Part shown: positions 12,899-26,503 of the stretch, piece by piece
Layout of the letters: every line of letters begins with the position of its first letter
Numbering within the stretch: position 1 is the stretch's first letter
Source: Desulfobacula sp.
Lineage (GTDB): Bacteria; Desulfobacterota; Desulfobacteria; Desulfobacterales; Desulfobacteraceae
Assembly (NCBI GenBank): GCA_013792075.1
Contig: VMSR01000126.1
Span: forward strand, 1 to 39,630
Direction of reading: 5' to 3'
DNA length: 39,630 nt
Made by a program: the position numbers and the translations under genes
The notes under the pieces: generated by a model
The model's input: the letters and a program-made list of their open reading frames with translations, nothing else
Told to the model about the DNA's origin: nothing
The model's database searches: none

Positions 12899-12930
12899 TT
12901 TTGTAAAGAAATATTTGGGAGGTAATGTAT

Positions 12931-14994
12931 ATGTCTTCAATCATTGGTCCGGCGAGTTATAAATTGTTCGGAATTTTTCCGACCGCCATTCTCTCTTTTG
13001 TTTTACCGGTTATCGGTATCGGCTTGTTTGCCTATATCATGACCCGGCGGATTGCACCCCTGGTAAGGGCAGCACCGGACAATCGACTCGATCACATCGG
13101 CCTGCGCATTAAAAATCTTGTGGTCGTCTGGCTGGGGCAGATCCGCCAGCCCCGGTATATGCTGGCAGGTGTCCTGCACATTGTAATCTTCGCCGGTTTT
13201 TTGATTCTCTCTGTTCGGTCCATCTCCCTTGTGGTCATCGGATTGTCAGATGGTTTTGTCCTTCCGGGACTGGGCGGCTGGCTTGGTCATGTGTACAATT
13301 TTATCAAGGATTATGCCGCGACCTTTGTGTTGATTGCCTGTATTGTGGCAGCCGTTCGCCGGGGAATTTATAAGCCCAAACGGTATGCTGTTCCTGAAAA
13401 ATACGGTAAGGACCACACAGCAGAAGCCGTGTTTGTGCTGGGTATTATTTCGACACTCATGATATCTGAAAGTCTGTTCGAGGCTTCAGAACTGGCCTAT
13501 GCGTTAACGGTGGACGGCCAGTCGCATTTTCTGGCGCCCCTCTCCCTGGTCTGGATTTTTAAGGGCATGCTCACATCAGCCTCTCCTGGCTTTCTCCAGG
13601 GACTTCACATCTTCACCTACTTTGTGCACGATCTGGCTTTTTTCTTTTTCCTCTGCTTTTTGCCCCTGGGAAAACATTTCCACGTCATCACTTCGATTTT
13701 CAATGTCTTTTTCATGCGGGTCCAAAAGGGAAATATCAAACCCGTACAGCACGGCATTAATGATGAAGAGCTGGATAGCCTGGAATCTTTTGGTGTTAAA
13801 CGACTGGAAGATTTTACCTGGAAGCATATGCTCGATTTTCATTCCTGTGCAGATTGCGGAAGGTGTTCGGACCAGTGCCCTGCCAATGCCGTGGGCAGGC
13901 CGCTTTCTCCGCGGTTTATCACCATTAAGGCCAGGGATTTGATGTTCAAGAATTATCCGCTGTCCGGTGAAATATACAAGAGCAAATTATTGGTGGAAGA
14001 TATTTTTACGGAAGATGAAATCTGGTCCTGCACCACCTGCGGGGCCTGTGAGGAAGAATGTCCCCTGGGCATTGAGTATATCGATAAAATGGTGGACCTG
14101 CGCCGGGGTATGGTGGATGAAGGCATGGTTCCCCAGTCACTTCAGAAACCGCTCAAAGCCCTGGAAAAACGCGGCAATCCCTATGGCAAGATGGAGAAAA
14201 AACGGGCAGAATGGACCGAGGATGCAGACTTTAAAGCCAAGCATTCCATTAAGGATCTGGGAGAAGAGACAGCGGACACCTTGTACTTTGTGGACAGTAT
14301 TACCTCCTATGATGACAATATCCAGGAAATAGCCAGACGGACATCCATCATCCTCGAGAAAGCCGGTGTTGATTTCGGAATCCTGGGCAAGGATGAAAAA
14401 GACAGCGGCAACGAGGTGCTTCGGTTTGGTGAGGAAATGCTCTACCAGGATCTGAAACAGCAGAACACAGAGGCCATTCTGGCATCGGGTGTCCGAAACA
14501 TCGTAACGGCCGATCCCCACGCCTATAATGCATTGAAAAATGATTATAAAGGTCTTCCGGAGGTGAAGCATATCAGCCAGGTGGTGGCCCAGAAAATTGC
14601 AACAGGTGAACTGGAGCTTAAAACCTGCCAGGATCCGGACAAGGTGTATGTGTACCATGATCCTTGTTACCTGGGACGGCACAACGGGGTTTATGAAGCA
14701 CCGCGGCAGGCCATGGATGCCATTAACGGACTGACCCGGGTTGAGCTGGAGAAGAGTCGGGATCGGTCCTTTTGTTGCGGCGGCGGCGGTCTCATGCTTT
14801 TCTTTGAACCGGAAGAAGAAACAAGAATGGGTGTCTTGAGAGTTAACATGGCTGCAGAGGCCGGTGCAAATGTCATTGTAACGGCCTGTCCTTTCTGCCT
14901 GGTGAATATCCAGGATGCGATAAAGGTTGCAGGAAAAGAAGGACAGATGGAAGCCCTTGATTTTACAGAACTCATAGAACAACATTTGAAATAG
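12931..14994 (+). CDS. Membrane ETF:menaquinone oxidoreductase (EMO-type FeS oxidoreductase)
   Basis: Accepts electrons from reduced ETF and passes them to menaquinone, linking acyl-CoA dehydrogenation to the membrane. Order of parts in 687 residues: an N-terminal NarI-like membrane domain with about six helices up to residue 255; two [4Fe-4S] motifs, CADCGRCSDQCP (about 305-316) and CTTCGACEEECP (about 367-378); then two CCG (DUF224) domains. The second CCG is intact (HDPCYLGRHN, FCCGGGG, TACPFC), whereas the first has lost its cysteines (KDSGNEVLRFGEE and TADPHAYN). The ATG at 12931 is eight bases after GGGAGG and is preferred to 12925. etfB and etfA follow at 41 bp and 2 bp, which supports the function. 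Confidence 0.9.
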   Translation: MSSIIGPASYKLFGIFPTAILSFVLPVIGIGLFAYIMTRRIAPLVRAAPDNRLDHIGLRIKNLVVVWLGQIRQPRYMLAGVLHIVIFAGFLILSVRSISLVVIGLSDGFVLPGLGGWLGHVYNFIKDYAATFVLIACIVAAVRRGIYKPKRYAVPEKYGKDHTAEAVFVLGIISTLMISESLFEASELAYALTVDGQSHFLAPLSLVWIFKGMLTSASPGFLQGLHIFTYFVHDLAFFFFLCFLPLGKHFHVITSIFNVFFMRVQKGNIKPVQHGINDEELDSLESFGVKRLEDFTWKHMLDFHSCADCGRCSDQCPANAVGRPLSPRFITIKARDLMFKNYPLSGEIYKSKLLVEDIFTEDEIWSCTTCGACEEECPLGIEYIDKMVDLRRGMVDEGMVPQSLQKPLKALEKRGNPYGKMEKKRAEWTEDADFKAKHSIKDLGEETADTLYFVDSITSYDDNIQEIARRTSIILEKAGVDFGILGKDEKDSGNEVLRFGEEMLYQDLKQQNTEAILASGVRNIVTADPHAYNALKNDYKGLPEVKHISQVVAQKIATGELELKTCQDPDKVYVYHDPCYLGRHNGVYEAPRQAMDAINGLTRVELEKSRDRSFCCGGGGLMLFFEPEEETRMGVLRVNMAAEAGANVIVTACPFCLVNIQDAIKVAGKEGQMEALDFTELIEQHLK

Positions 14995-15035
14995 TGCAGC
15001 GTTTACAATAAAATTTATTTTTTAAGGAGACGATA

Positions 15036-15824
15036 ATGGAGATTTTGGTATGCGTCAAGCGAGTCCCGGATACTGCCGAGAACGAATTTGAACTCAATGG
15101 TGCAGGGAATGATCTTGACCGCGATGATCTGGTTTATTCGGTGAACGAATGGGACAATTATGCGGTTGAAGAGGCCATTCAGATGGTTGACAAAATGGGC
15201 GGTTCTGTGACCGTTGTGACCGTTGGTGATGACGAGTCAGAAGAAATTTTACGGCGTGAAATGGCCATGGGTGCCAACAATGGGGTTCTGCTTTCCGATG
15301 ATGCCTTTGAAGGATCAGATGGAAAGGGGATCGCCACCATTCTAAAGGCGGAAATTGAAAAGGGCAGCTACGACCTGATTCTCACCGGTGCCCAGGCAGA
15401 TGAAGGCGCAGGACAGGTTGGCGGTATGGTTGCGGCCATGCTTGATTATCCTTACGCCTCGCTGGTCAACAAAATCGATGTGATGGATGATAAAAAAATC
15501 AAGGTGGGAAGGGAGATCGAAGGGGGCAACCAGGAAATGAATGAAATTTCACTTCCCTGTGTTCTTTCCATCCAGACAGGTATCAATGAGCCCCGGTATG
15601 TGGGTATCCGCGGTATCAGAAAAGTTTCCAGCGTGGAAATTCCGGTAAAGAGTGCGTCTGACCTGGGGCTTGATGCCGCCAGCGTTGGCAGTGCCGGTGC
15701 CAAGACCCGCAGGGTGGATTATTTTGTCCCGGATATGGGGGAGGGTGCTGAAATGCTTGAAGGCTCCACAGAAGAGATTATCGCAAAACTGATCGAGAAG
15801 CTTAAAGCCAAAGGAGGACTCTAA
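15036..15824 (+). CDS. etfB: Electron transfer flavoprotein beta subunit
   Basis: Small subunit of ETF, the soluble FAD carrier between acyl-CoA-type dehydrogenases and EMO. The 262-residue protein begins MEILVCVKRVPDTAENEFELN, as in the family, with VYSVNEWDNYAVEEAIQM, LTGAQADEGAGQVGGMVAAML (the nucleotide-binding signature) and LPCVLSIQTGINEPRYVGIRGIRKV. AAGGAG precedes the start. It sits between the EMO gene and etfA, with only 2 bp to etfA. I cannot tell from sequence alone whether the ETF is bifurcating; association with EMO favours a simple electron carrier. Confidence 0.97.
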   Translation: MEILVCVKRVPDTAENEFELNGAGNDLDRDDLVYSVNEWDNYAVEEAIQMVDKMGGSVTVVTVGDDESEEILRREMAMGANNGVLLSDDAFEGSDGKGIATILKAEIEKGSYDLILTGAQADEGAGQVGGMVAAMLDYPYASLVNKIDVMDDKKIKVGREIEGGNQEMNEISLPCVLSIQTGINEPRYVGIRGIRKVSSVEIPVKSASDLGLDAASVGSAGAKTRRVDYFVPDMGEGAEMLEGSTEEIIAKLIEKLKAKGGL

Positions 15825-15826
15825 TC

Positions 15827-16795
15827 ATGACACAGATTTATGCCTATATTCCATTTAAGAACGGCAGTGCAGAAGATGTGGCCCTTGAGTATCCGGCAGC
15901 TGCAAAAAAAATAGATGCCGCAGCAATGCTCACGGCTGTTGTAACCGGTTCCGGGGCAGAACTTGATTCTGTTGCCACTGAAATGAGCAAGATTTACGAA
16001 CAGGTTATCAAAGTGGATAACCAGGCCCTTGCATATCCCAATGCAGAGGTTGTCAGAAAAGCATTGGTTAACATTATTCCCAAGGATGCCATTCTGCTGG
16101 TGGCCCATACCACCTTTGGCATGGACATTGCTCCCGGTCTTTCCGTGAAAATGGATGCAGCCTATGCCGCTGATATTGTTGATTTTGAAGGCATTGAAGG
16201 CACCCGTCTTAAAATGGTCCGCCAGGAACTGGGCGGTGCTGTTTCCACCCATGTGACGGCAGATATCTCTGCCGGTGCCGTCATCACCATCCGGCCGGGT
16301 GCCTTTGCCCCTGTGGATGGCGGTGCTGCCAATGGGACCATTACGGACAAATCCGCTGATGCAGGGGATCTTGCCAGTACGAGAAAATTTCTTGAAGTGG
16401 TTGAAGCTGAAGTCGGAGATGTGGATATCACCAAATCCGATGTATTGGTTTCCATTGGCCGGGGGATCGAGGAACAAGAGAATATTGAACTTGCCCAGGA
16501 ATTGGCCACTGCCATGAATGCGGTTGTTTCCTGTTCAAGACCCATTGTGGATGCCAAATGGCTTGAAAAATCACGCCAGGTCGGTACCTCCGGCCAGACC
16601 GTTAAGCCAAAGGTGTATATGGCAATGGGAATCTCCGGATCCTTCCAGCATTTGGGCGGCCTAAAGGGGAACCCCTTTATTGTGGCGGTTAATAAAAATC
16701 CAAAAGCCCCTATTTTTCAGGTGGCGGATGTGGGAATAGTGACAGATATTCTTGAGTTCATGCCGGAATTGACCGAGGCAATTTCAAGTCTATAG
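15827..16795 (+). CDS. etfA: Electron transfer flavoprotein alpha subunit
   Basis: Large subunit of ETF that carries the redox-active FAD. The 322-residue protein has the conserved C-terminal FAD domain: LVSIGRGIEEQENIELAQELA, SRPIVDAKW, GTSGQTVKPKVYMAMGISGSFQHLGG, then FIVAVNKNPKAPIFQVADVGIVTD. The N-terminal half is the more variable ETF alpha/beta fold. It is the last gene of the operon, 26 bp before an intrinsic terminator, so EMO-etfB-etfA forms a closed transcription unit. Confidence 0.97.
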   Translation: MTQIYAYIPFKNGSAEDVALEYPAAAKKIDAAAMLTAVVTGSGAELDSVATEMSKIYEQVIKVDNQALAYPNAEVVRKALVNIIPKDAILLVAHTTFGMDIAPGLSVKMDAAYAADIVDFEGIEGTRLKMVRQELGGAVSTHVTADISAGAVITIRPGAFAPVDGGAANGTITDKSADAGDLASTRKFLEVVEAEVGDVDITKSDVLVSIGRGIEEQENIELAQELATAMNAVVSCSRPIVDAKWLEKSRQVGTSGQTVKPKVYMAMGISGSFQHLGGLKGNPFIVAVNKNPKAPIFQVADVGIVTDILEFMPELTEAISSL

Positions 16796-18434: not shown

Positions 18435-19082
18435 TTAAAAGACCAGATCGTCAAATACAACCGGGATTTTTGTTTGCACCTCTTTGAGCAGAGGAAGCAT
18501 GAGCGCCACCATCTGGGGGTGGGATGCCTTGGCACATCGCAGGGCAAACACATGCCGCCACTCTCTGATATTGGCTTTTACCACAATTTCGGTCTTCAGG
18601 CTGTTGGGCAGTATCTCCCGGGCATGCTGGGCTTTCCATCCATTTTGTAATAGGGTTTTGTAATCTGATTCTGCCCGGGCCATGGCCTGCATCCACACCT
18701 GTTCTGCCGGGGTGAACCCGGGTGGAACAGAGGCGTGTTCCGGCCAGCTGCCCACCAGTCGATCGCTGCACCAGACCGGCCGGATAAATTCCATTTGCCC
18801 GTCATATTTCACATACCGGGTGGATTCCTGGGCAAAACTGCAATGGCGGTGCCGCACCAGTTCATGGGTCACGCCCCTGTTGGTAACAAGTTTGACAACC
18901 ATATCCCCGAATTCAATCATGGCATGGTGTCCGCTTTTTACCAGCATCGCCACAAATCGTTCAGCCGAGTCCCCTGTGATCTTGTCCTCGGATTTGTAAC
19001 AGGTTCTGCCTGCTTTTTCCATTAGTTGAAGGCCGTTTTCCGGCAGTCCCAGGAGTTCGTGGGTTTGTTCGATAATTTCCAT
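18435..19082 (-). CDS. thyX: FAD-dependent thymidylate synthase ThyX
   Basis: Makes dTMP from dUMP using methylene-THF and reduced FAD, replacing ThyA. The 215-residue protein carries the ThyX signature RHRxxSxxxxSxRY as RHRHCSFAQESTRY, plus AGRTCYKS near the N-terminus, the LLPNSLKTEIVVKANIREWRHVFALR-type block (here ILPNSLKTE...), and the closing AKASHPQMVALM. The ATG follows the larA stop codon with no intervening base, so translation is coupled to larA. Being the last gene of a hydroxyacid-oxidation operon is an odd context for a nucleotide biosynthesis enzyme. Confidence 0.96.
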   Translation of the reverse strand: MEIIEQTHELLGLPENGLQLMEKAGRTCYKSEDKITGDSAERFVAMLVKSGHHAMIEFGDMVVKLVTNRGVTHELVRHRHCSFAQESTRYVKYDGQMEFIRPVWCSDRLVGSWPEHASVPPGFTPAEQVWMQAMARAESDYKTLLQNGWKAQHAREILPNSLKTEIVVKANIREWRHVFALRCAKASHPQMVALMLPLLKEVQTKIPVVFDDLVF

Positions 19083-20336
19083 TTACTTGCTTTCCAGGAT
19101 CAGGGGAACCGTCAGACCGCCGTCCATTAAAAACAGAACGGATGCATCCTTGCCTTTTTCTTTAAGGGCAAGGTCAATGGCTGTCTGGAGATCGGAAAAA
19201 GGGGTGATGAACAATTTTGAAATTATTTCTGGCGCCACATCGGTCACGCCCCACATCTGCGCCCACAGACCGATTTCCGCCATTTTGGCGGCCTTGTGAT
19301 ATCCCAGAACATATCCCTGTTCAATTTTATCCAAAGCGGCCTTGGGGGTGTCGCAGGAACCCAAGAGATCGGCAAAGGCTTTGCCGCCGATGCCGTCCCG
19401 GCATTTGGCCACCAGGATCATGATGCCGTTTTTTTTCAGGGCCAGTTTGGCATTGTCAATGCCCTTCTGGGCCTGGTACAGATCGATATCCTGGGGAAAT
19501 TTTACCACAGAGACCACAATATCGGCCTTTTCCTTTAGGGGGGCTGCAAAAACTTCATTGGCCTTTTCAATGGCGGCATGGAAGGAATCATGGATATGAC
19601 CTGCACAGGTGGCATAGACCTTGTGGTGTTTGTCCAGAACCGTCATGATGGAAAAAATTTCCTGTTTAACGGTCTTGATGGCGTCCATCATGTCTTCGTG
19701 CACGGGGTTGCCGTCCAGGGAAAGAGCCCGTGCCTCAGGCACCAGTGCCAGCTTATGGTTCTGTTCGATGGTCTTAAATCCTGCGATGCCCGGCAGAAAG
19801 GATTTCCTGCCCCCGGTGTATCCGGCAAAATAATGGGGCTCCACCGAAGAGATGATAATAAATTTATCCGCTTCCACCCCGGCCTTGTTCACATACATCT
19901 GAGTCCCGTTGGAGGAGGTGCCCAAAAAGACCTGGTCTTCTTCTTTTCTGGCATCATGGACAATGATATGCCCCTTGATCTGCTCATAATAGGGGCCAAA
20001 AATCTGATAATACTCTTCTTCTGTCGGGCCCCTGTGGGCACCGGTTGCAATGATGAAGTTATAGTTTGTCCGGCCCAGGTCATCAAAAATCACATCCAGC
20101 ACTTTTTGGGTGGGGGTGGGCCGTGTGGCATCATTGACAATCACCAGCACCTGTTTGGCGTCCCCAAGAAATTCTGTAAAATTTCGAGAATTAATGGGAT
20201 TTGCAATGGCGTGGGCGATGACGGCATCCTCATCGCTGATTTCAACATCATTGGCTTCGAGCAAGCTGACCTTGATGCGGTCATCAATAACAGCGGACAT
20301 TACGCCCTCTCGTCCATAGGGTACATCTATCTGCAT
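19083..20336 (-). CDS. LarA-family nickel-dependent 2-hydroxyacid racemase
   Basis: Racemases of this family, founded by lactate racemase LarA, use the nickel-pincer nucleotide cofactor. The 417-residue protein has the diagnostic VNDATRPTPT, IATGAHRGP (catalytic His region), EPHYFAGYTGGRKSFLPGIAG (second His plus the cofactor-attaching Lys), and the C-terminal domain ending VLFLMDGGLTVP. AAGGAG precedes the start. No larB, larC or larE cofactor genes are in the window, so the cofactor must come from elsewhere. Its position between the dehydrogenase/polyferredoxin pair and thyX suggests that it interconverts L- and D-lactate for a D-specific dehydrogenase, but other 2-hydroxyacids are possible because the family is broader than lactate. 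Confidence 0.85.
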   Translation of the reverse strand: MQIDVPYGREGVMSAVIDDRIKVSLLEANDVEISDEDAVIAHAIANPINSRNFTEFLGDAKQVLVIVNDATRPTPTQKVLDVIFDDLGRTNYNFIIATGAHRGPTEEEYYQIFGPYYEQIKGHIIVHDARKEEDQVFLGTSSNGTQMYVNKAGVEADKFIIISSVEPHYFAGYTGGRKSFLPGIAGFKTIEQNHKLALVPEARALSLDGNPVHEDMMDAIKTVKQEIFSIMTVLDKHHKVYATCAGHIHDSFHAAIEKANEVFAAPLKEKADIVVSVVKFPQDIDLYQAQKGIDNAKLALKKNGIMILVAKCRDGIGGKAFADLLGSCDTPKAALDKIEQGYVLGYHKAAKMAEIGLWAQMWGVTDVAPEIISKLFITPFSDLQTAIDLALKEKGKDASVLFLMDGGLTVPLILESK

Positions 20337-20347
20337 TGAATTCTCCT

Positions 20348-21295
20348 TTAGCGTATGGGCCCCAGGGCGTTCATTTTTACAACAAAGGTATCAATCTCTG
20401 CCTGGAACAGCGCCTTGTCTCCGGCGGCAATTTCTACCAGATGCACCCTTTCAGGATCGATTTTTACTGTTTCAAGGGTTTTTTGAAGATTTTTGATCAT
20501 GCGTTTTGCATTTGTATTGCCCTTGTGCGCACAGTCCCCTTCGGGGCAGCAGGCCACAAGGACCCCCCAGGCGTTGCTCAGGAACGGGGCCATGAGCAAT
20601 TGAGCCTCAAGACGTCCTGCGCACATATTCACCAGAATTTCATAGGCATTGTCCTTTGTTTCCGATTCCGGCAGCCGGGAGGCCTGGAGATCCGGATAAT
20701 AGGACCAGTTGCAGGCAAAGACAATGGCTTTGGCCGATGAATGGGATCTTAAAAAATCCCCGGCCTTTTGGGTCAGTTCTTCCCGGCTGGTGCCAAAATT
20801 ATTTTTTATTTTAGCAGCGCCTGCCGGGCAGGCTTCCACACAGATACCGCAGGACTGGCATTTGGAAGGATCGGTTTCAATACCGGTTTCCTTGTGACTT
20901 CTTGCCTCGTGGGGGCAGGCGCCCACACAGATCAGGCATCTGGCACAATTGAGCTGGGTGATGGAAGTGGTGCCGGGGCCTGAAAGGCCCATTTCCATAA
21001 GGTCTTTTTTGGCATCTGTAAAGACTTCGGTCAGGGTAACGCCCGAGGAGCAGGCCGCCTCACACCGCTTGCAATAAAAACAATTGAACAATTTTTCCGC
21101 AGCCTCTGGCGTGGGCGCAACCTTTCCCGATAGCAGGCCGAAAGCCGTGATGATTTTGCCCCTTGGCGCATCGGATTCCCATCCGGTAAACTTAAACATG
21201 GGACAATGTTCAAAACAATATCCACATCTGATACAGCTTGCCAGGGTACCCGCCCATTTTTCTAAATGCGTGAATTTTTTTTCTGTGGTTTCCAT
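20348..21295 (-). CDS. Polyferredoxin with MvhD-like domain, partner of the FAD dehydrogenase
   Basis: A 315-residue electron-transfer protein. Residues 20-90 form a GlpC/LdhB-type pair of clusters (CIRCGYCFEHCP and CFYCKRCEAACSSGV). Residues 115-165 are a two-[4Fe-4S] ferredoxin (CARCLICVGACP, CQSCGICVEACP). From about 200 onward there is an MvhD/FlpD-like domain: FACNWSYYPD, NMCAGRLEAQLL and ACCPEGDCAHKGNTNA. The usual second Cys of the first CxxC is Ser here. The CCG domains of true LdhB/GlcF are absent. MvhD normally connects hydrogenase or formate dehydrogenase to HdrA, so delivery of electrons to an Hdr-like complex is the inference. It lies 17 bp after the dehydrogenase gene and 11 bp before larA. 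Confidence 0.82.
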   Translation of the reverse strand: METTEKKFTHLEKWAGTLASCIRCGYCFEHCPMFKFTGWESDAPRGKIITAFGLLSGKVAPTPEAAEKLFNCFYCKRCEAACSSGVTLTEVFTDAKKDLMEMGLSGPGTTSITQLNCARCLICVGACPHEARSHKETGIETDPSKCQSCGICVEACPAGAAKIKNNFGTSREELTQKAGDFLRSHSSAKAIVFACNWSYYPDLQASRLPESETKDNAYEILVNMCAGRLEAQLLMAPFLSNAWGVLVACCPEGDCAHKGNTNAKRMIKNLQKTLETVKIDPERVHLVEIAAGDKALFQAEIDTFVVKMNALGPIR

Positions 21296-21312
21296 TCAGA
21301 CGTCCTCTTTTA

Positions 21313-22747
21313 TTAGCTGTTCACGGAATATCTCAGGTCGGTGGCCGTTACCCAATCCTCAGGGGCCTCCATGAGTTTTCCAGGATTCAGTATGTTATTG
21401 GGGTCCAATGCGCGTTTTATGGTCCTAAGCAAGGAGAGTGAATCGGCTTTTTCAATCTTGAATGCAGCCGCCTTGGAAAGACCGATGCCGTGTTCTGCAC
21501 TGGTGGTACCGTTGACGGATCTTACATATTCATAGATTTCAGTAATGGCTTTTCTGGCGGACTGCCATTGGTCTGCACGTCTTGTGTCCATCAGTATTTT
21601 GGTGTGCATGCAGCCCGACCCGCAATGGCCGTAGGCCGTCATGATAATATTGTTTTTTTTTGGCCACCTCATGGATTTTTTCGGCCATTTCCGCCATCTT
21701 GGAATAGGGGACGGCCATGTCATCGGCCAAAGAGGTGGACGACAGATTGTCATCATATTTGGACAGGGCGGGAAATAATTTTTTCCGGCCCAGAAATATT
21801 TTTGCCCGTTCCTTGGGATCATAGCTTGAATGCAGGTCTTTGCCGTGGTGGCGTTCACAGATACGTTTCATTTTGTTGATTTCGTAGTCAACGGCTTCTT
21901 TTACCATGCCGTCTGCCTCAAAAATAAGGGCTGCCGCCACTTCCTTTAGCCCCAGGTTCATGGTTTTGTTGACCGCCTTGATGGCAATGGAATCCACAAG
22001 CTCCAGCATGGAAGGGATGGCCCCGGACCCCATGATGGACCCAATGGCCTCTCCTGCATCCTGCAGCGAGTCAAAATTGGCAATTCCCATGCACCGAAAT
22101 TCCGGGATGGGCACAAAGCTTAAGGTGGCCTCCACAACAATTCCCAATGTTCCTTCGGATCCGACCATGAGCTTGTGGAGCTGATACCCGGACGCTTCCA
22201 CCCGGGTTCGGGCACCTAGGTTTACCAAACTGCCGTCGGGCATGACCACCTTCATGCCAAGGACGGCATCCCGGGTGGCCCCGTATTTTACCGATCGAAC
22301 GCCACTGGCATTGTTGGCAATCTCTCCGCCAATGGTGGCGATTCTGGAGGAAGCCGGTGTCGGCGGATAAAAAACCCCGTATGGTTTTAAGGCCATGTTA
22401 AGATCATCGTCCACAACGCCTGGCTCCACCCGGCAGTATACATCGGGCATATTGATTTCCAATATTCTATTCATGCCTTTCATGTCCAGAATAATACCCC
22501 CCTGGATCGGCACAGTCTGTCCGCACATGCCCGATCCGCCGCCCCTTGGGGTGACAGGGATGAGTGCCTGGTTGGCATATTCCATGATTTGCTGAACCTG
22601 CAGGGTGGTGTCCGGTTTGACAATCACCCAGGGCATTGCATGGTGAACAGATGAATCAGAACCATATATATAAAGGTCTGACGGATCCGACTTGATATTT
22701 TTCTCTCCGACAATCTCTCTTAATCTGGGTTCGTCAACCGATTTCAT
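21313..22747 (-). CDS. FAD-linked 2-hydroxyacid (D-lactate-type) dehydrogenase, frameshifted at an A9 run
   Basis: GlcD/Dld-family flavoprotein oxidising a 2-hydroxyacid. The FAD-binding half is in the frame starting at 22747 (PRGGGSGMCGQTVP, IGGEIANNASGVRSVKYG, MVGSEGTLGIV). The C-terminal half, with MTAYGHCGSGCMHTKIL and SAEHGIGLSKAAAF, is in another frame ending at 21313. The break is at a run of nine A on the coding strand (21653-21661). With eight A the protein reads continuously as AKKNNIIMTAYGHCG and gives a normal 477 residues. It is either a sequencing error, a real inactivation, or slippage. The usual GHxGDGNxH appears as GHCGSGCMH, an unusual variant. First gene of the operon with the polyferredoxin, larA and thyX. 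Confidence 0.85.
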
Positions 22748-22954: not shown

Positions 22955-22997
22955 TCTGGTATGACCCATTCAACGGACGCTTTTGCGAGGATATAAT

Positions 22998-24935
22998 ATG
23001 ACCTATACAATAAAATTTTTACCCCAGAATGCTACCATTAAAGTGAAAGAAAACGAAAGCCTGATACGGGCGGCCATGGAGGCTGGCGTGCATATCAATG
23101 CCTCCTGCGGCGGGACCGGGGTTTGCGGGAAATGCCGGGTGCATATAGAAGGAGGAGAGGTTGCAGGCGGCGTGTCCGAGCACCTGTCCCCGGAAGACCA
23201 GGCCCTGGGCTATCGCCTGGCCTGTATGTCCACTGTTATCTCGGATCTTGTGGTGAGAATCCCGGTGGAATCCCAGATGGAGACCAGTCGTCTGAACCAG
23301 AAAACAACGGGGCGTCACACGGCCAAGGCCATGTTTACCAATGTGGATGAACTTCGGGAAAACGGATTGTTTATTCCGCCGGTGGAAAAAATTTATTTGG
23401 AGATGGACCCGGCCAGTGAAGGGGACAACCAGGCAGATGTGGCAAGAATTATCAACCATCTGCGCATGAAGCACGACGAGCACCGACTGACCATGGGCCT
23501 TGGCCTGATACGTAAAATTCCCGATATCATCCGGCAGGGAAATTTTAAGGTAACCGCCACCATTGTCCGGCCGGTTCGTAAGGATGGGAAAAACAGAATC
23601 ATCAATATCGAGCCCTTTGATACCAGCGACAGAAATTTTGCCATTGCCATGGACATCGGAACCACAACGGTATATGGCCAGGCCCTGGACCTTAAAACAG
23701 GGGAGGTTCTGGCCCAGCACGGGGAGTTCAACAGCCAGATCTCCTATGGAGAAGATGTGATTTCCAGGATTGTTTTTGCGGAAAAAGGTGACGGCCTTGA
23801 AATTCTCCACCAGAAGGTTGTGGAGACCATCAACAAAATTATCGAAAGAATCGTCAAGAAAGCCGACATCGGCATCCATGAAGTGTCCACCATTACCCTG
23901 GCCGGCAATTCCACCATGACCCAGCTGCTGTTGAAAATCAATCCCAGTTACATCCGGAAAGAGCCCTATGTGCCGGCATCCATAATGTATCCGCCCTTTC
24001 GTGCCACAAAGATCGGCCTTTGTCTTTCCGATCATACCATTGCCCTTATTTATCCCGGTGTCTCCTCCTATGTGGGCGGGGATATCATTTCCGGCATCAT
24101 GGCCTCTGGCATGTATTTGACAGAGGAGCTGACCCTGTATATGGACATTGGTACCAATGCGGAAATCGCCATCGGCCACAAGGACTGGATGGTCTGCACG
24201 GCTGCCTCGGCCGGACCGGCCTTTGAAGGCGGGGGTGTAAAATTTGGAATGCGGGCCACCAAAGGGGCCATTGAAGATTTTTCCATAAATCCCATCACCT
24301 ATGAACCCATGATTATCACCGTGGGCAACTTGCCTGCCAAGGGGATTTGCGGGTCAGGGTTGATCACCCTTGCCGCCAAACTTCTGGAAACCGGGGTGAT
24401 TGATTCCCGGGGCAAATTCAACCAGAACCTTTCCACCCCCCGTATCCGGCAAACCGATGATATCTGGGAATATGTGCTGGTGTATAAGGAAAATACCCAG
24501 ATTGACCGGGACATCGCCATCACAGAGCCGGATCTGGACAATTTGATCCGGGCAAAAGGGGCCATGTATTCTGCCGCCCTGACCCTGTTGGAAGAGATCG
24601 GACTTAAGATCCATGACATTGAGAGAGTCATCCTGGCAGGGGGGTTTGGTTCGTTTGTGGATCTTGAATCTGCCATTACCATCGGGCTGTTACCGGAAAT
24701 TGAGCCTGCCAGGGTCACCTATCTTGGCAACGGGTCCCTCCTGGGATGCCAGATCAATTGCCTGACCAACTCCCTTCGCAGGAATGTGAGCGAGGTGGTG
24801 AACATGATGACAAATTTTGAGCTGGCATCCACCGCCTCTTACATGGACCATTATATGGGGGCCCTGTTCATGCCCCATACAGAGCTCAATTATTTTCCAA
24901 AGGTCAAGGCCCGTTTGGAAGGACTGCGCAAATGA
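22998..24935 (+). CDS. RACo-like corrinoid-activation ATPase with N-terminal [2Fe-2S] ferredoxin
   Basis: Reductive activators of corrinoid proteins use a [2Fe-2S] domain and an ASKHA ATPase to return Co(II) to Co(I). In 645 residues: ferredoxin cysteines Cys37-x5-Cys43-x2-Cys46 and Cys76 (SCGGTGVCGKC, RLAC); linker and middle region to about 210; then the ASKHA domain with AMDIGTTTVYGQALD, TLAGNSTMTQ, MDIGTNAEIAIG, GICGSGLITLAAKLL and VILAGGFGSFVDLESA. The ATG at 22998 follows GAGGA at good spacing; a TTG at 22983 is rejected. A second DUF4445 gene overlaps its stop by 4 bp. No corrinoid protein or methyltransferase gene is in the window, so the target is unknown. Confidence 0.86.
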   Translation: MTYTIKFLPQNATIKVKENESLIRAAMEAGVHINASCGGTGVCGKCRVHIEGGEVAGGVSEHLSPEDQALGYRLACMSTVISDLVVRIPVESQMETSRLNQKTTGRHTAKAMFTNVDELRENGLFIPPVEKIYLEMDPASEGDNQADVARIINHLRMKHDEHRLTMGLGLIRKIPDIIRQGNFKVTATIVRPVRKDGKNRIINIEPFDTSDRNFAIAMDIGTTTVYGQALDLKTGEVLAQHGEFNSQISYGEDVISRIVFAEKGDGLEILHQKVVETINKIIERIVKKADIGIHEVSTITLAGNSTMTQLLLKINPSYIRKEPYVPASIMYPPFRATKIGLCLSDHTIALIYPGVSSYVGGDIISGIMASGMYLTEELTLYMDIGTNAEIAIGHKDWMVCTAASAGPAFEGGGVKFGMRATKGAIEDFSINPITYEPMIITVGNLPAKGICGSGLITLAAKLLETGVIDSRGKFNQNLSTPRIRQTDDIWEYVLVYKENTQIDRDIAITEPDLDNLIRAKGAMYSAALTLLEEIGLKIHDIERVILAGGFGSFVDLESAITIGLLPEIEPARVTYLGNGSLLGCQINCLTNSLRRNVSEVVNMMTNFELASTASYMDHYMGALFMPHTELNYFPKVKARLEGLRK

Positions 24936-26503
24936 GCCCCAAAGGGTCTGGCAATGGATTTGTCAGGACCCTGGAAATTGAAAAACCGGTCCTGGGAAAC
25001 AATACGGCCGATGCCCAGCGCCTGGAGCAGGCCCTGAAAAAAAATCTGGGAAATCAGATGGGCAACAGGGGCGTAAGTATCCCTTTGTATCTGCTGCAAA
25101 AACTTCCCTCCCGGCTTCGGGCCTGGGATTACAAAGCCAGGGCAATTCTATTCAAGGATCGTAGGTCCTGGCACCTGGTGGACCTGCTGGCCCCGGACAG
25201 CCTGCAGCCGGTGCTGGGTGCGGCCATTGATATCGGCACCACCCGGATTGTGATCCGGCTTGTGGATCTTGAGGGGGGGCAGACCCTGGGTGAGGTCGGG
25301 TTTGACAATCCCCAGGCGGCCATTGGCCCGGATGTGCTGGCCCGGATCCATCATTCCCATAAACCCGGCGGCCTTGACCAGCTCCGAAGTCTGGTGATGG
25401 ATGCCGTGAATGCCAATTTGTCCGGGCTCTGCCGGGCCAACGGATGGGATACCCAGGACATTTACCTTGTGACCGGGGCCGGCAACACGGCCATGACCCA
25501 TTTGTTTTTAGGTCTTGAGGCATTTGAGATCATCCGGGAACCCTATATCCCCTGTGTGAATATACTGGATACCCTTTTGGCCAGAGAGGTGGGCCTGGAT
25601 ATCCATCCTTGCGGCCTGCTCTTTTTGTTTCCCAATATCGGGTCCTATTTTGGCGGAGATCTTGTTGCCGGGATTTTATTTGCCGGTCTGGACAAAAAAC
25701 AGGCCCCCTGCCTCATGGTGGATGTGGGCACCAATGCCGAGATTGTGGTGGGCAGCAGGGACTGGCTCATCGCCTGCGCTGGTGCTGCAGGCCCTGCCCT
25801 GGAAGGCGGGGTCAGCAAAATGGGCATGACCGCAGGGCCCGGTGTCATTGATCGGGTGACCCTTGATCCTTCCACCCGAAAGATGTGTATCCATACCATT
25901 GAAGAAAAAAAGCCCGTGGGCATCTGCGGTTCGGGCATGATTGATCTGGCGGCAGCCCTGTTTGTATCCGGCAGGATCGATATCCGGGGGAAATTTTCAG
26001 AAACAGCCTGTGGGAACCAGCTCAGAAAAGAGGACGGACTTCTTTCCTTTGTCCTGGTGGACAGGGCCAATTCCGGTACAGGCCGGGATATTGTCTTAAC
26101 CCAGGTGGACCTCAACTCTTTGACCAGTTCCAAGGCAGCCATGTACACCATACTGGAGGTGATCGTCAAAAACACGGCAGGCCTTGAATTTGAAGCCCTT
26201 GAAACCTTTTACGTGGCAGGCACCTTTGGGTCTTTTATCAATCCGGATTCTGCCATTTCCATTGGCATGCTCCCGGACATAGACCGGTCCCGGTTTCAGG
26301 TTCTGGGCAACTCTTCTCTGGGCGGGGCAGCGCTTTTGCTCCTGGATACTACTGCCCATGACAGAATTATGGAGATCCGCCAATCGATCACCTATATTGA
26401 ATTGAACGTGAACCAGGAATTCATGAACATGTTTTCCGGAGCCAAGTTTTATCCCCACACGGACCGGTCCAGGTTCCCATCTGTTTCCATTGACTCGGCA
26501 TAA
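24932..26503 (+). CDS. RACo-like ASKHA protein lacking the ferredoxin domain
   Basis: A 523-residue paralogue of the preceding gene. It has no [2Fe-2S] cysteines: the first 95 residues match the middle region of RACo, and the ASKHA domain starts at about residue 97 with AAIDIGTTRIVIRLVD. It keeps VTGAGNTAMTHL, MVDVGTNAEIVVGSRDW, GAAGPALEGG, GICGSGMIDLAAALF and YVAGTFGSFINPDSA. The start overlaps the upstream stop in ATGA, which implies translational coupling and roughly equal expression. It may form a heteromer with the first protein and borrow its ferredoxin, or have another ATPase role. Both ideas are inference. Confidence 0.84.
   Translation: MSPKGSGNGFVRTLEIEKPVLGNNTADAQRLEQALKKNLGNQMGNRGVSIPLYLLQKLPSRLRAWDYKARAILFKDRRSWHLVDLLAPDSLQPVLGAAIDIGTTRIVIRLVDLEGGQTLGEVGFDNPQAAIGPDVLARIHHSHKPGGLDQLRSLVMDAVNANLSGLCRANGWDTQDIYLVTGAGNTAMTHLFLGLEAFEIIREPYIPCVNILDTLLAREVGLDIHPCGLLFLFPNIGSYFGGDLVAGILFAGLDKKQAPCLMVDVGTNAEIVVGSRDWLIACAGAAGPALEGGVSKMGMTAGPGVIDRVTLDPSTRKMCIHTIEEKKPVGICGSGMIDLAAALFVSGRIDIRGKFSETACGNQLRKEDGLLSFVLVDRANSGTGRDIVLTQVDLNSLTSSKAAMYTILEVIVKNTAGLEFEALETFYVAGTFGSFINPDSAISIGMLPDIDRSRFQVLGNSSLGGAALLLLDTTAHDRIMEIRQSITYIELNVNQEFMNMFSGAKFYPHTDRSRFPSVSIDSA

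Follow-up and report, generated by a model that had tools for sequence, protein, structure and literature searches.

A candidate NAD-independent malate-oxidising operon, glcD-flpD-larA, in Desulfobacteraceae

The family Desulfobacteraceae includes acetate oxidisers, and when acetate is oxidised via the tricarboxylic acid (TCA) cycle, one of the steps is the oxidation of malate. This raises the question of which enzymes act on malate in a family where malate dehydrogenase (Mdh) is scarce. This question is posed here by a stretch of 39,630 nucleotides from Desulfobacula sp. (assembly GCA_013792075.1, contig VMSR01000126.1), further called the window, which is contig 224 of a source genome of 5.3 Mb in 308 contigs. 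On its minus strand, the gene for a GlcD-type FAD dehydrogenase is transcribed first, then that for a polyferredoxin with a C-terminal FlpD/MvhD domain and then that for a LarA-type racemase; thyX follows directly. The gaps between the three genes are only 17 bases (dehydrogenase and polyferredoxin) and 11 bases (polyferredoxin and larA), thus the arrangement is operon-like. The initial annotation of this DNA described the same three genes as a 2-hydroxyacid (lactate-type) oxidation module with a possible electron outlet to HdrA. The genes are indeed found there on the minus strand and their identities stood, except that the dehydrogenase is not a single open reading frame (ORF) in this assembly, being broken at a run of nine A.

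The answer that we favour, with moderate confidence, is that the operon is a racemase-coupled, NAD-independent malate-oxidising system, which takes over the role of malate dehydrogenase in a large part of the Desulfobacteraceae. The direct observations behind it are the identity of the genes, their conservation and domain order, the scarcity of Mdh in the family and the exchange for mdh at one locus, while the substrate, its stereochemistry, the direction of the electron flow, the types of clusters and the acceptor are what we infer from them. In the proposed mechanism, LarA would interconvert L- and D-malate, and the flavoprotein, whose GlcD-type relatives are mostly D-specific, would oxidise malate to oxaloacetate on FAD. 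The electrons would be accepted by the polyferredoxin at its N-terminal GlcF/HdrC-like dicluster and would travel via four [4Fe-4S] clusters as far as the FlpD domain with its [2Fe-2S] cluster; this domain may dock on an acceptor, plausibly an HdrA-type complex.

A conserved three-gene operon

An orthologue search for the three-gene set, of the kind suggested by the initial annotation, finds it in relatives: the order and strand of glcD-flpD-larA are kept in 62 of the 62 loci with all three genes, which rules out a chance arrangement. These loci come from two overlapping retrievals, with some genomes counted twice, and nine loci without all three genes were set aside. Among 58 relatives, the polyferredoxin is matched at E <= 1e-80 in 33 of the 35 genomes of the same family. 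The 23 other-family genomes give a best match of about 1e-22, located in the tails of larger proteins. In the larger set of Desulfobacteraceae, it is present in 69 of 86 genomes; of the 42 genomes with a completeness of 90% or more and a contamination of 5% or less, 40 have it. Scanning the named genomes yielded 41 close loci (L043-L083), three of which are labelled outside the family: L053 as Proteobacteria, L061 as Deltaproteobacteria and L073 as Desulfarculaceae (Desulfobacteraceae in the other collection, as G011). The near relatives belong to Desulfobacula, Desulfotignum, Desulfospira, Desulfamplus, Desulfocicer, Desulfobacterium and unresolved Desulfobacteraceae.

Malate dehydrogenase in the family

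The Ldh_1_N domain, which covers both NAD-malate and L-lactate dehydrogenases, scores over its cut-off in 21 of the 23 other-family genomes versus 12 of the 35 family genomes, and Mqo was found in none of these 35. A canonical Mdh query matches 27 of the 86 family genomes. Two of these matches are solitary (G022, G455), three are L-Ldh-like at 30-32% identity (G025, G031, G450) and 22 are of a tandem-pair kind; G497, counted among the last, shows a single piece. One tandem pair was scanned: its second gene passes the Mdh equivalog, its first fails. Such tandem Mdh-like gene pairs are seen in L098, L100, L103, L104 and L108, and the pair of L112 adjoins metF, metV, mvhD and Hdr-like genes. The polyferredoxin together with no Mdh match is the state of 47 of the 86 genomes, of which 38, the source genome included, are also without Ldh_2.

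An example of an exchange is provided by G022 (97% complete, 1% contaminated), which is without the polyferredoxin and carries a canonical mdh (L109, 9674-10621). Here the pair AcsV2-AcsV1 is divergent from mdh, and in the sister genome G031 AcsV2-AcsV1 is divergent from glcD-flpD-larA. The Mdh of G022 scores 480 bits with TIGR01763 (cut-off 352) and shares 76-81% identity with the Mdh of four other-family genomes, versus 55% with the pair type; no AcsV was found near mdh in those four genomes, in flanks of up to about 1.5 kb. The simplest reading of the G022/G031 locus is that one malate-oxidising unit replaced the other.

A strict mutual exclusion of polyferredoxin and Mdh was considered and rejected. 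When the tandem pairs are counted, an Mdh match occurs in 5 of the 17 genomes without polyferredoxin (G022, G455, G015, G493, G495) and in 22 of the 69 with it. Only the solitary Mdh type is exclusive with the polyferredoxin, and this type comprises just two genomes.

The operon would matter most in Desulfobacter, since acetate oxidation via the TCA cycle needs oxaloacetate from malate, directly or via pyruvate. An excerpt of PMC7699770 describes Desulfobacter postgatei as an acetate oxidiser of the Desulfobacteraceae and ATP-citrate lyase as the enzyme used by Desulfobacter. In the genus g8, 15 of 19 genomes are without a normal citrate synthase, as expected of ATP-citrate lyase users, and these 15 are therefore taken as probably Desulfobacter-like. 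The polyferredoxin is present in 13 of them and a close Mdh in none of the 13, among which G025 has an L-Ldh-like protein and G464 has Ldh_2. The remaining two are G455, with the solitary Mdh and no polyferredoxin, and G454 (56% complete), with neither. Mqo was not found in the four of the 15 genomes that were tested for it, and malic enzyme-type matches occur in 14 of the 15. Proteins of 913-919 amino acids in L138 (424-3162, plus strand) and L139 (1767-4523, minus strand) combine CoA_binding and Succ_CoA_lig domains with a weak citrate-synthase match; they may be a divergent ATP-citrate lyase of the genomes without citrate synthase, which is suggestive only.

Substrate of the racemase and the dehydrogenase

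The larA gene (19083-20336, minus strand) encodes a racemase of the LarA family, dependent on the nickel-pincer nucleotide (NPN), with Lar_N at 176.8 bits and LarA_C at 67.9 bits. The NPN-binding and catalytic residues are present, and larC (PF01969), a gene of NPN synthesis, is found in the source genome (G000:C266). The best-scoring model is that of the LarAH6 malate racemase (NF052593; 380.0 bits, below the cut-off of 500), and it is likewise the best model for four orthologues, at 369-383 bits. The lactate racemase model (NF033504) gives 292.9 bits, which is below its cut-off of 460 and 87 bits under LarAH6. An excerpt of PMC7583248 lists Tyr172, Lys173, Gln293 and Lys351 as the specificity residues of the malate racemase Mar2, and Val297 and Trp358 in the lactate racemase LarA; measured against that list, three of the four Mar2 residues, Tyr, Gln and Lys, are present here. 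Of 53 distinct orthologue sequences, all have a Tyr-Phe pair, 49 have the Gln and 52 the HKA stretch. That Gln was missed in four may be an artefact of the search pattern, as one of these four Desulfobacter-like sequences reads Ser-Gln-Lys-Ala there.

The neighbourhoods of the operon point in the same direction. An aconitase gene lies divergent upstream of it, with malic enzyme beyond, in L055, L060, L063 (Desulfobacula) and L070, and acetyl-CoA hydrolase/transferase is located on its far side in L060 and L063 (for such neighbours, one member per protein cluster was checked by Pfam). The racemase model scores, this context and the mdh exchange favour malate, so the lactate of the initial annotation is not retained as the leading substrate. 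A lactate system, in which LarA would racemise lactate, GlcD would make pyruvate and FlpD would feed an Hdr complex, is considered quite improbable. D-lactate dehydrogenases are among the GlcD-type relatives (8jdc; LctD, 7qh2), as this alternative would predict, and among the solved LarA proteins a lactate racemase is the closest in sequence. It has against it, apart from the model scores, the Gln and Lys at the positions that PMC7583248, as excerpted, gives as Val297 and Trp358 in the lactate enzyme, and the lack of a lactate permease among the window proteins scanned (a subset of the window ORFs); moreover, it leaves the mdh exchange in G022 without a reason.

The dehydrogenase gene (21313-22747, minus strand) is split into ORFs 21539-22747 and 21313-21858. 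The first contains FAD_binding_4 (139.8 bits) and FAD-oxidase_C, and the second contains the end of FAD-oxidase_C; both domains of the GlcD/Dld superfamily are thus present, spread across two ORFs. The frame is lost at the nine A (21653-21661, minus strand). In four loci of the same genus (L014, L015, L017, L018), whose longest A runs are 5, 5, 5 and 8, the frame stays open across this site, and a programmed frameshift is therefore unsupported; the dehydrogenase of L052 is likewise split, at another site. The broken frame is an assembly slip or a recent real slip, and the two cannot be told apart.

The active-site motif of the dehydrogenase differs from that of its solved relatives. GHCGSGCMH (codons at 21602-21630, minus strand) is invariant in 18 of 18 aligned orthologues, whose mean column identity is 86%, and replaces the GHxGDGNxH motif, with the counterparts GHAGDGNLH in 7qh2, GHVGDGNFH in 8jdc and AHAGDGNLH in 9qgz. 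The motif is unusual for a GlcD/Dld-type dehydrogenase. Its coding pattern occurs in one of 395 genomes sampled across the phylum, namely the source genome, in a sample which holds no other genome of Desulfobacteraceae. With the GlcD equivalog TIGR00387, two intact orthologues reach 388.9 (L044) and 380.7 bits, below the cut-off of 567.9. The second-best solved relative is LctD (7qh2) with 249.8 bits. The predicted structure of the dehydrogenase has a mean pLDDT of 49.7, and nothing was deduced from this model. The low equivalog score and the atypical motif, together with a LarA that stays under every scanned cut-off, are what would be expected if the same architecture served another 2-hydroxyacid, such as 2-hydroxyglutarate, tartrate, glycerate or similar. 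This alternative is judged unlikely, as the neighbouring aconitase and malic enzyme genes and the exchange for mdh speak for malate.

A number of observations weigh against malate oxidation by this operon. In the racemase, Phe stands at the position of Lys173 of Mar2 (as numbered in the excerpted source), all five members scanned stay under the curated malate-racemase cut-off, and the sequence search of the PDB puts the lactate racemase (206 bits) slightly above Mar2 (200 bits). Of the 22 polyferredoxin genomes with an Mdh match, 19 have the pair type, and this non-exclusion over all Mdh types speaks against a simple replacement story. Twelve of the 86 family genomes are without both polyferredoxin and Mdh. 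Malic enzyme is present in 74 of the 86, the source genome included, which gives malate another exit. A different loss is seen in G475 (L133) and G488 (L134), which retain larA beside AcsV1, without glcD and flpD, and neither has Mdh; in these two genomes, LarA may serve a separate function. Malate oxidation in Desulfobacter postgatei is possibly not NAD-linked. PMC12137691 points the other way: for its assay of NAD-linked malate dehydrogenase it refers to the paper of 1983 on Desulfobacter postgatei.

Electron outlet and relation to known systems

The polyferredoxin gene (20348-21295, minus strand) encodes three parts. The N-terminal part, with a predicted 2x[4Fe-4S] content, is HdrC/GlcF-like (residues 18-86, 21038-21244; Fer4_8 55.6 bits), and the GlcF model covers only residues 13-92. 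The middle part is a ferredoxin, also predicted to be 2x[4Fe-4S] (residues 116-160, 20816-20950; Fer4_9 at 116-160, Fer4 at 140-160). The C-terminal part (residues 191-312, 20360-20725) is matched by FlpD (PF02662) with 102.7 bits against the curated cut-off of 22.3. A structure model of moderate quality (pLDDT 75.4, pTM 0.51) gave just four Foldseek matches at E <= 0.001, all of them MvhD-type chains (5odh_D, 5odc_D, 8rvu_F, 7bkb_F). The C-terminal domain is thus FlpD/MvhD by score and predicted fold, and no CCG domain was matched in the domain scan of the protein; the claim of the initial annotation that an MvhD-like domain takes the place of the CCG domains of LdhB/GlcF is borne out. Residues 107-314 align with the ferredoxin-plus-MvhD C-terminal end of HdrA2 (104.9 bits). 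In the 15 aligned members, 16 ferredoxin cysteines and four FlpD cysteines are invariant, and a comparison of the CNWC, MCxGR and CxxxxC motifs of MvhD finds Ser in place of the second Cys of CNWC in all 15.

In the source genome, seven of the 12 FlpD matches (L001, L003, L004, L006-L009) contain one or two in-frame TGA codons. The TGA is found at the position of the second CNWC Cys in L007 and L009 and at another Cys in L003, and such codons perhaps encode selenocysteine, which an excerpt of PMC2702500 reports for MvhD of Desulfobacterium autotrophicum.

The initial annotation had expected an HdrA-like partner elsewhere in the genome, and HdrA models match beside FlpD/MvhD at nine other loci, in stretches cut by locus ends. 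Neither of the two findings that the initial annotation named as refutations, a C-terminal domain that does not score as MvhD/FlpD and a genome without an HdrA-like partner, was therefore made. No hdrA was found in the operon or its neighbours in the window, which counts against an HdrA-type acceptor of the electrons; such an acceptor is plausible but unproven. The potentials of malate and lactate are about -170 mV and -190 mV, and that of NAD is -320 mV. At these potentials, NAD-linked malate oxidation is unfavourable and a FAD/Fe-S route to a better acceptor is sensible. By the same values, electrons from such donors could not drive the reduction of ferredoxin by bifurcation with a mild second acceptor; this would take a strongly oxidising one. 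An HdrA that acts as a confurcating or collecting hub, or a direct transfer, is therefore likelier than bifurcation.

The genes metV and metF lie upstream of glcD, in its orientation, in L076 (Desulfocicer) and L078 (Desulfobacterium), in the latter at a distance of 20 bases. L075 belongs to the same metagenome-assembled genome as L078; there, larA is faced by the gene of an HdrA-like protein with a FlpD end, beyond which lie metF and metV. The known MetVF complex includes MvhD and HdrABC (excerpt of PMC6085437), and the metVF neighbourhood fits an Hdr-type outlet but does not prove it. In Desulfobacterium autotrophicum, according to the excerpt of PMC2702500, mvhD follows the HdrA and HdrL genes with one exception, and LdhAB is named as the lactate dehydrogenase.

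A different outlet for the malate electrons, to EtfAB or menaquinone with FlpD docking elsewhere, deserves serious attention, even if we lean away from it. The window contains etfBA with a gene for a 689-amino-acid CCG iron-sulfur protein (12925-16795, plus strand), on the strand opposite to the operon and 2.3-6.2 kb past its 3′ end; these recur near the operon in relatives, where etfA is a neighbour at 11 of the 41 second-retrieval loci, and may constitute an Etf:quinone route. The changed Cys of FlpD and the lack of hdrA in cis also suit such an outlet, as does the malate potential for menaquinone. On the other side, the FlpD/MvhD relatives that were identified among solved structures are parts of Hdr complexes, and the Etf-linked lactate dehydrogenase has its Etf genes inside the operon.

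The favoured malate system can be extended into a fuller picture, which as a whole is tentative and rather unlikely. In it, Desulfobacteraceae, Desulfobacter included, would need no known malate dehydrogenase to close the TCA cycle: LarA would convert L-malate to D-malate, a GlcD with a new, cysteine-bearing motif in its active site would oxidise the latter, and an HdrC-ferredoxin-MvhD wire would lead the electrons to a confurcating HdrA complex, possibly shared with methyl-tetrahydrofolate oxidation. If malate is indeed oxidised by racemase, FAD dehydrogenase and MvhD-type wire, the TCA-cycle annotation of Desulfobacteraceae has a gap that the operon fills, and the energetics of acetate oxidation with sulfate would have to be re-examined. 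Hdr-type complexes may then gain a new electron donor, and the malate-type LarA would obtain a physiological role; the in vivo roles of LarA-type enzymes are named as an important remaining question in the excerpt of PMC7583248.

The remaining neighbours are regarded as context. The gene thyX (18435-19082, minus strand) lies immediately 3′ of larA, is the downstream neighbour in the genus and stands outside the proposed system. Two AcsV-type corrinoid activators (22983-26503, plus strand) are the divergent neighbours; these tandem paralogues occupy 22983-24935 and 24932-26503, the second without a Fer2 match. Of the 41 second-retrieval loci, 24 contain AcsV genes. In three Desulfobacter-like genomes, the divergent neighbour of the operon is ftcD, and no AcsV is found within the 18-19 kb around the operon. 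An obligatory link to AcsV and the Wood-Ljungdahl pathway was therefore rejected.

No published description of the glcD-flpD-larA gene set was found in the literature searched, and its parts can be compared with several known systems. In GlcDEF and LdhA/LdhB, as here, a flavoprotein with FAD_binding_4 and FAD-oxidase_C stands beside an iron-sulfur partner with a GlcF-like N-terminal dicluster, whereas here FlpD replaces the CCG domains, GHCGSGCMH replaces GHxGDGNxH, and the GlcD equivalog cut-off is not reached. The electron-confurcating LctBCD (7qh2) has in LctD a relative of the dehydrogenase, but here the operon includes no etf gene and the partner is a polyferredoxin with FlpD. With MvhD and HdrA2 of the Hdr complexes (5odc, 7bkb, 8rvu), the FlpD fold is common and the ferredoxin-plus-FlpD part aligns with the C-terminal end of HdrA2; in contrast, the polyferredoxin is without the HdrA flavin domain, has an HdrC/GlcF-like dicluster fused in front and carries Ser for the second CNWC Cys. 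LarA shares with Mar2 (LarAH6; 6d6z) the NPN-binding and catalytic residues and the specificity Tyr, Gln and Lys, and differs in its Phe for Lys173 and in its score of 380 bits against the cut-off of 500. Finally, Mdh and Mqo catalyse the reaction proposed here from sequence, malate to oxaloacetate, but they are proteins unrelated to those of the operon, with other cofactors and another acceptor.

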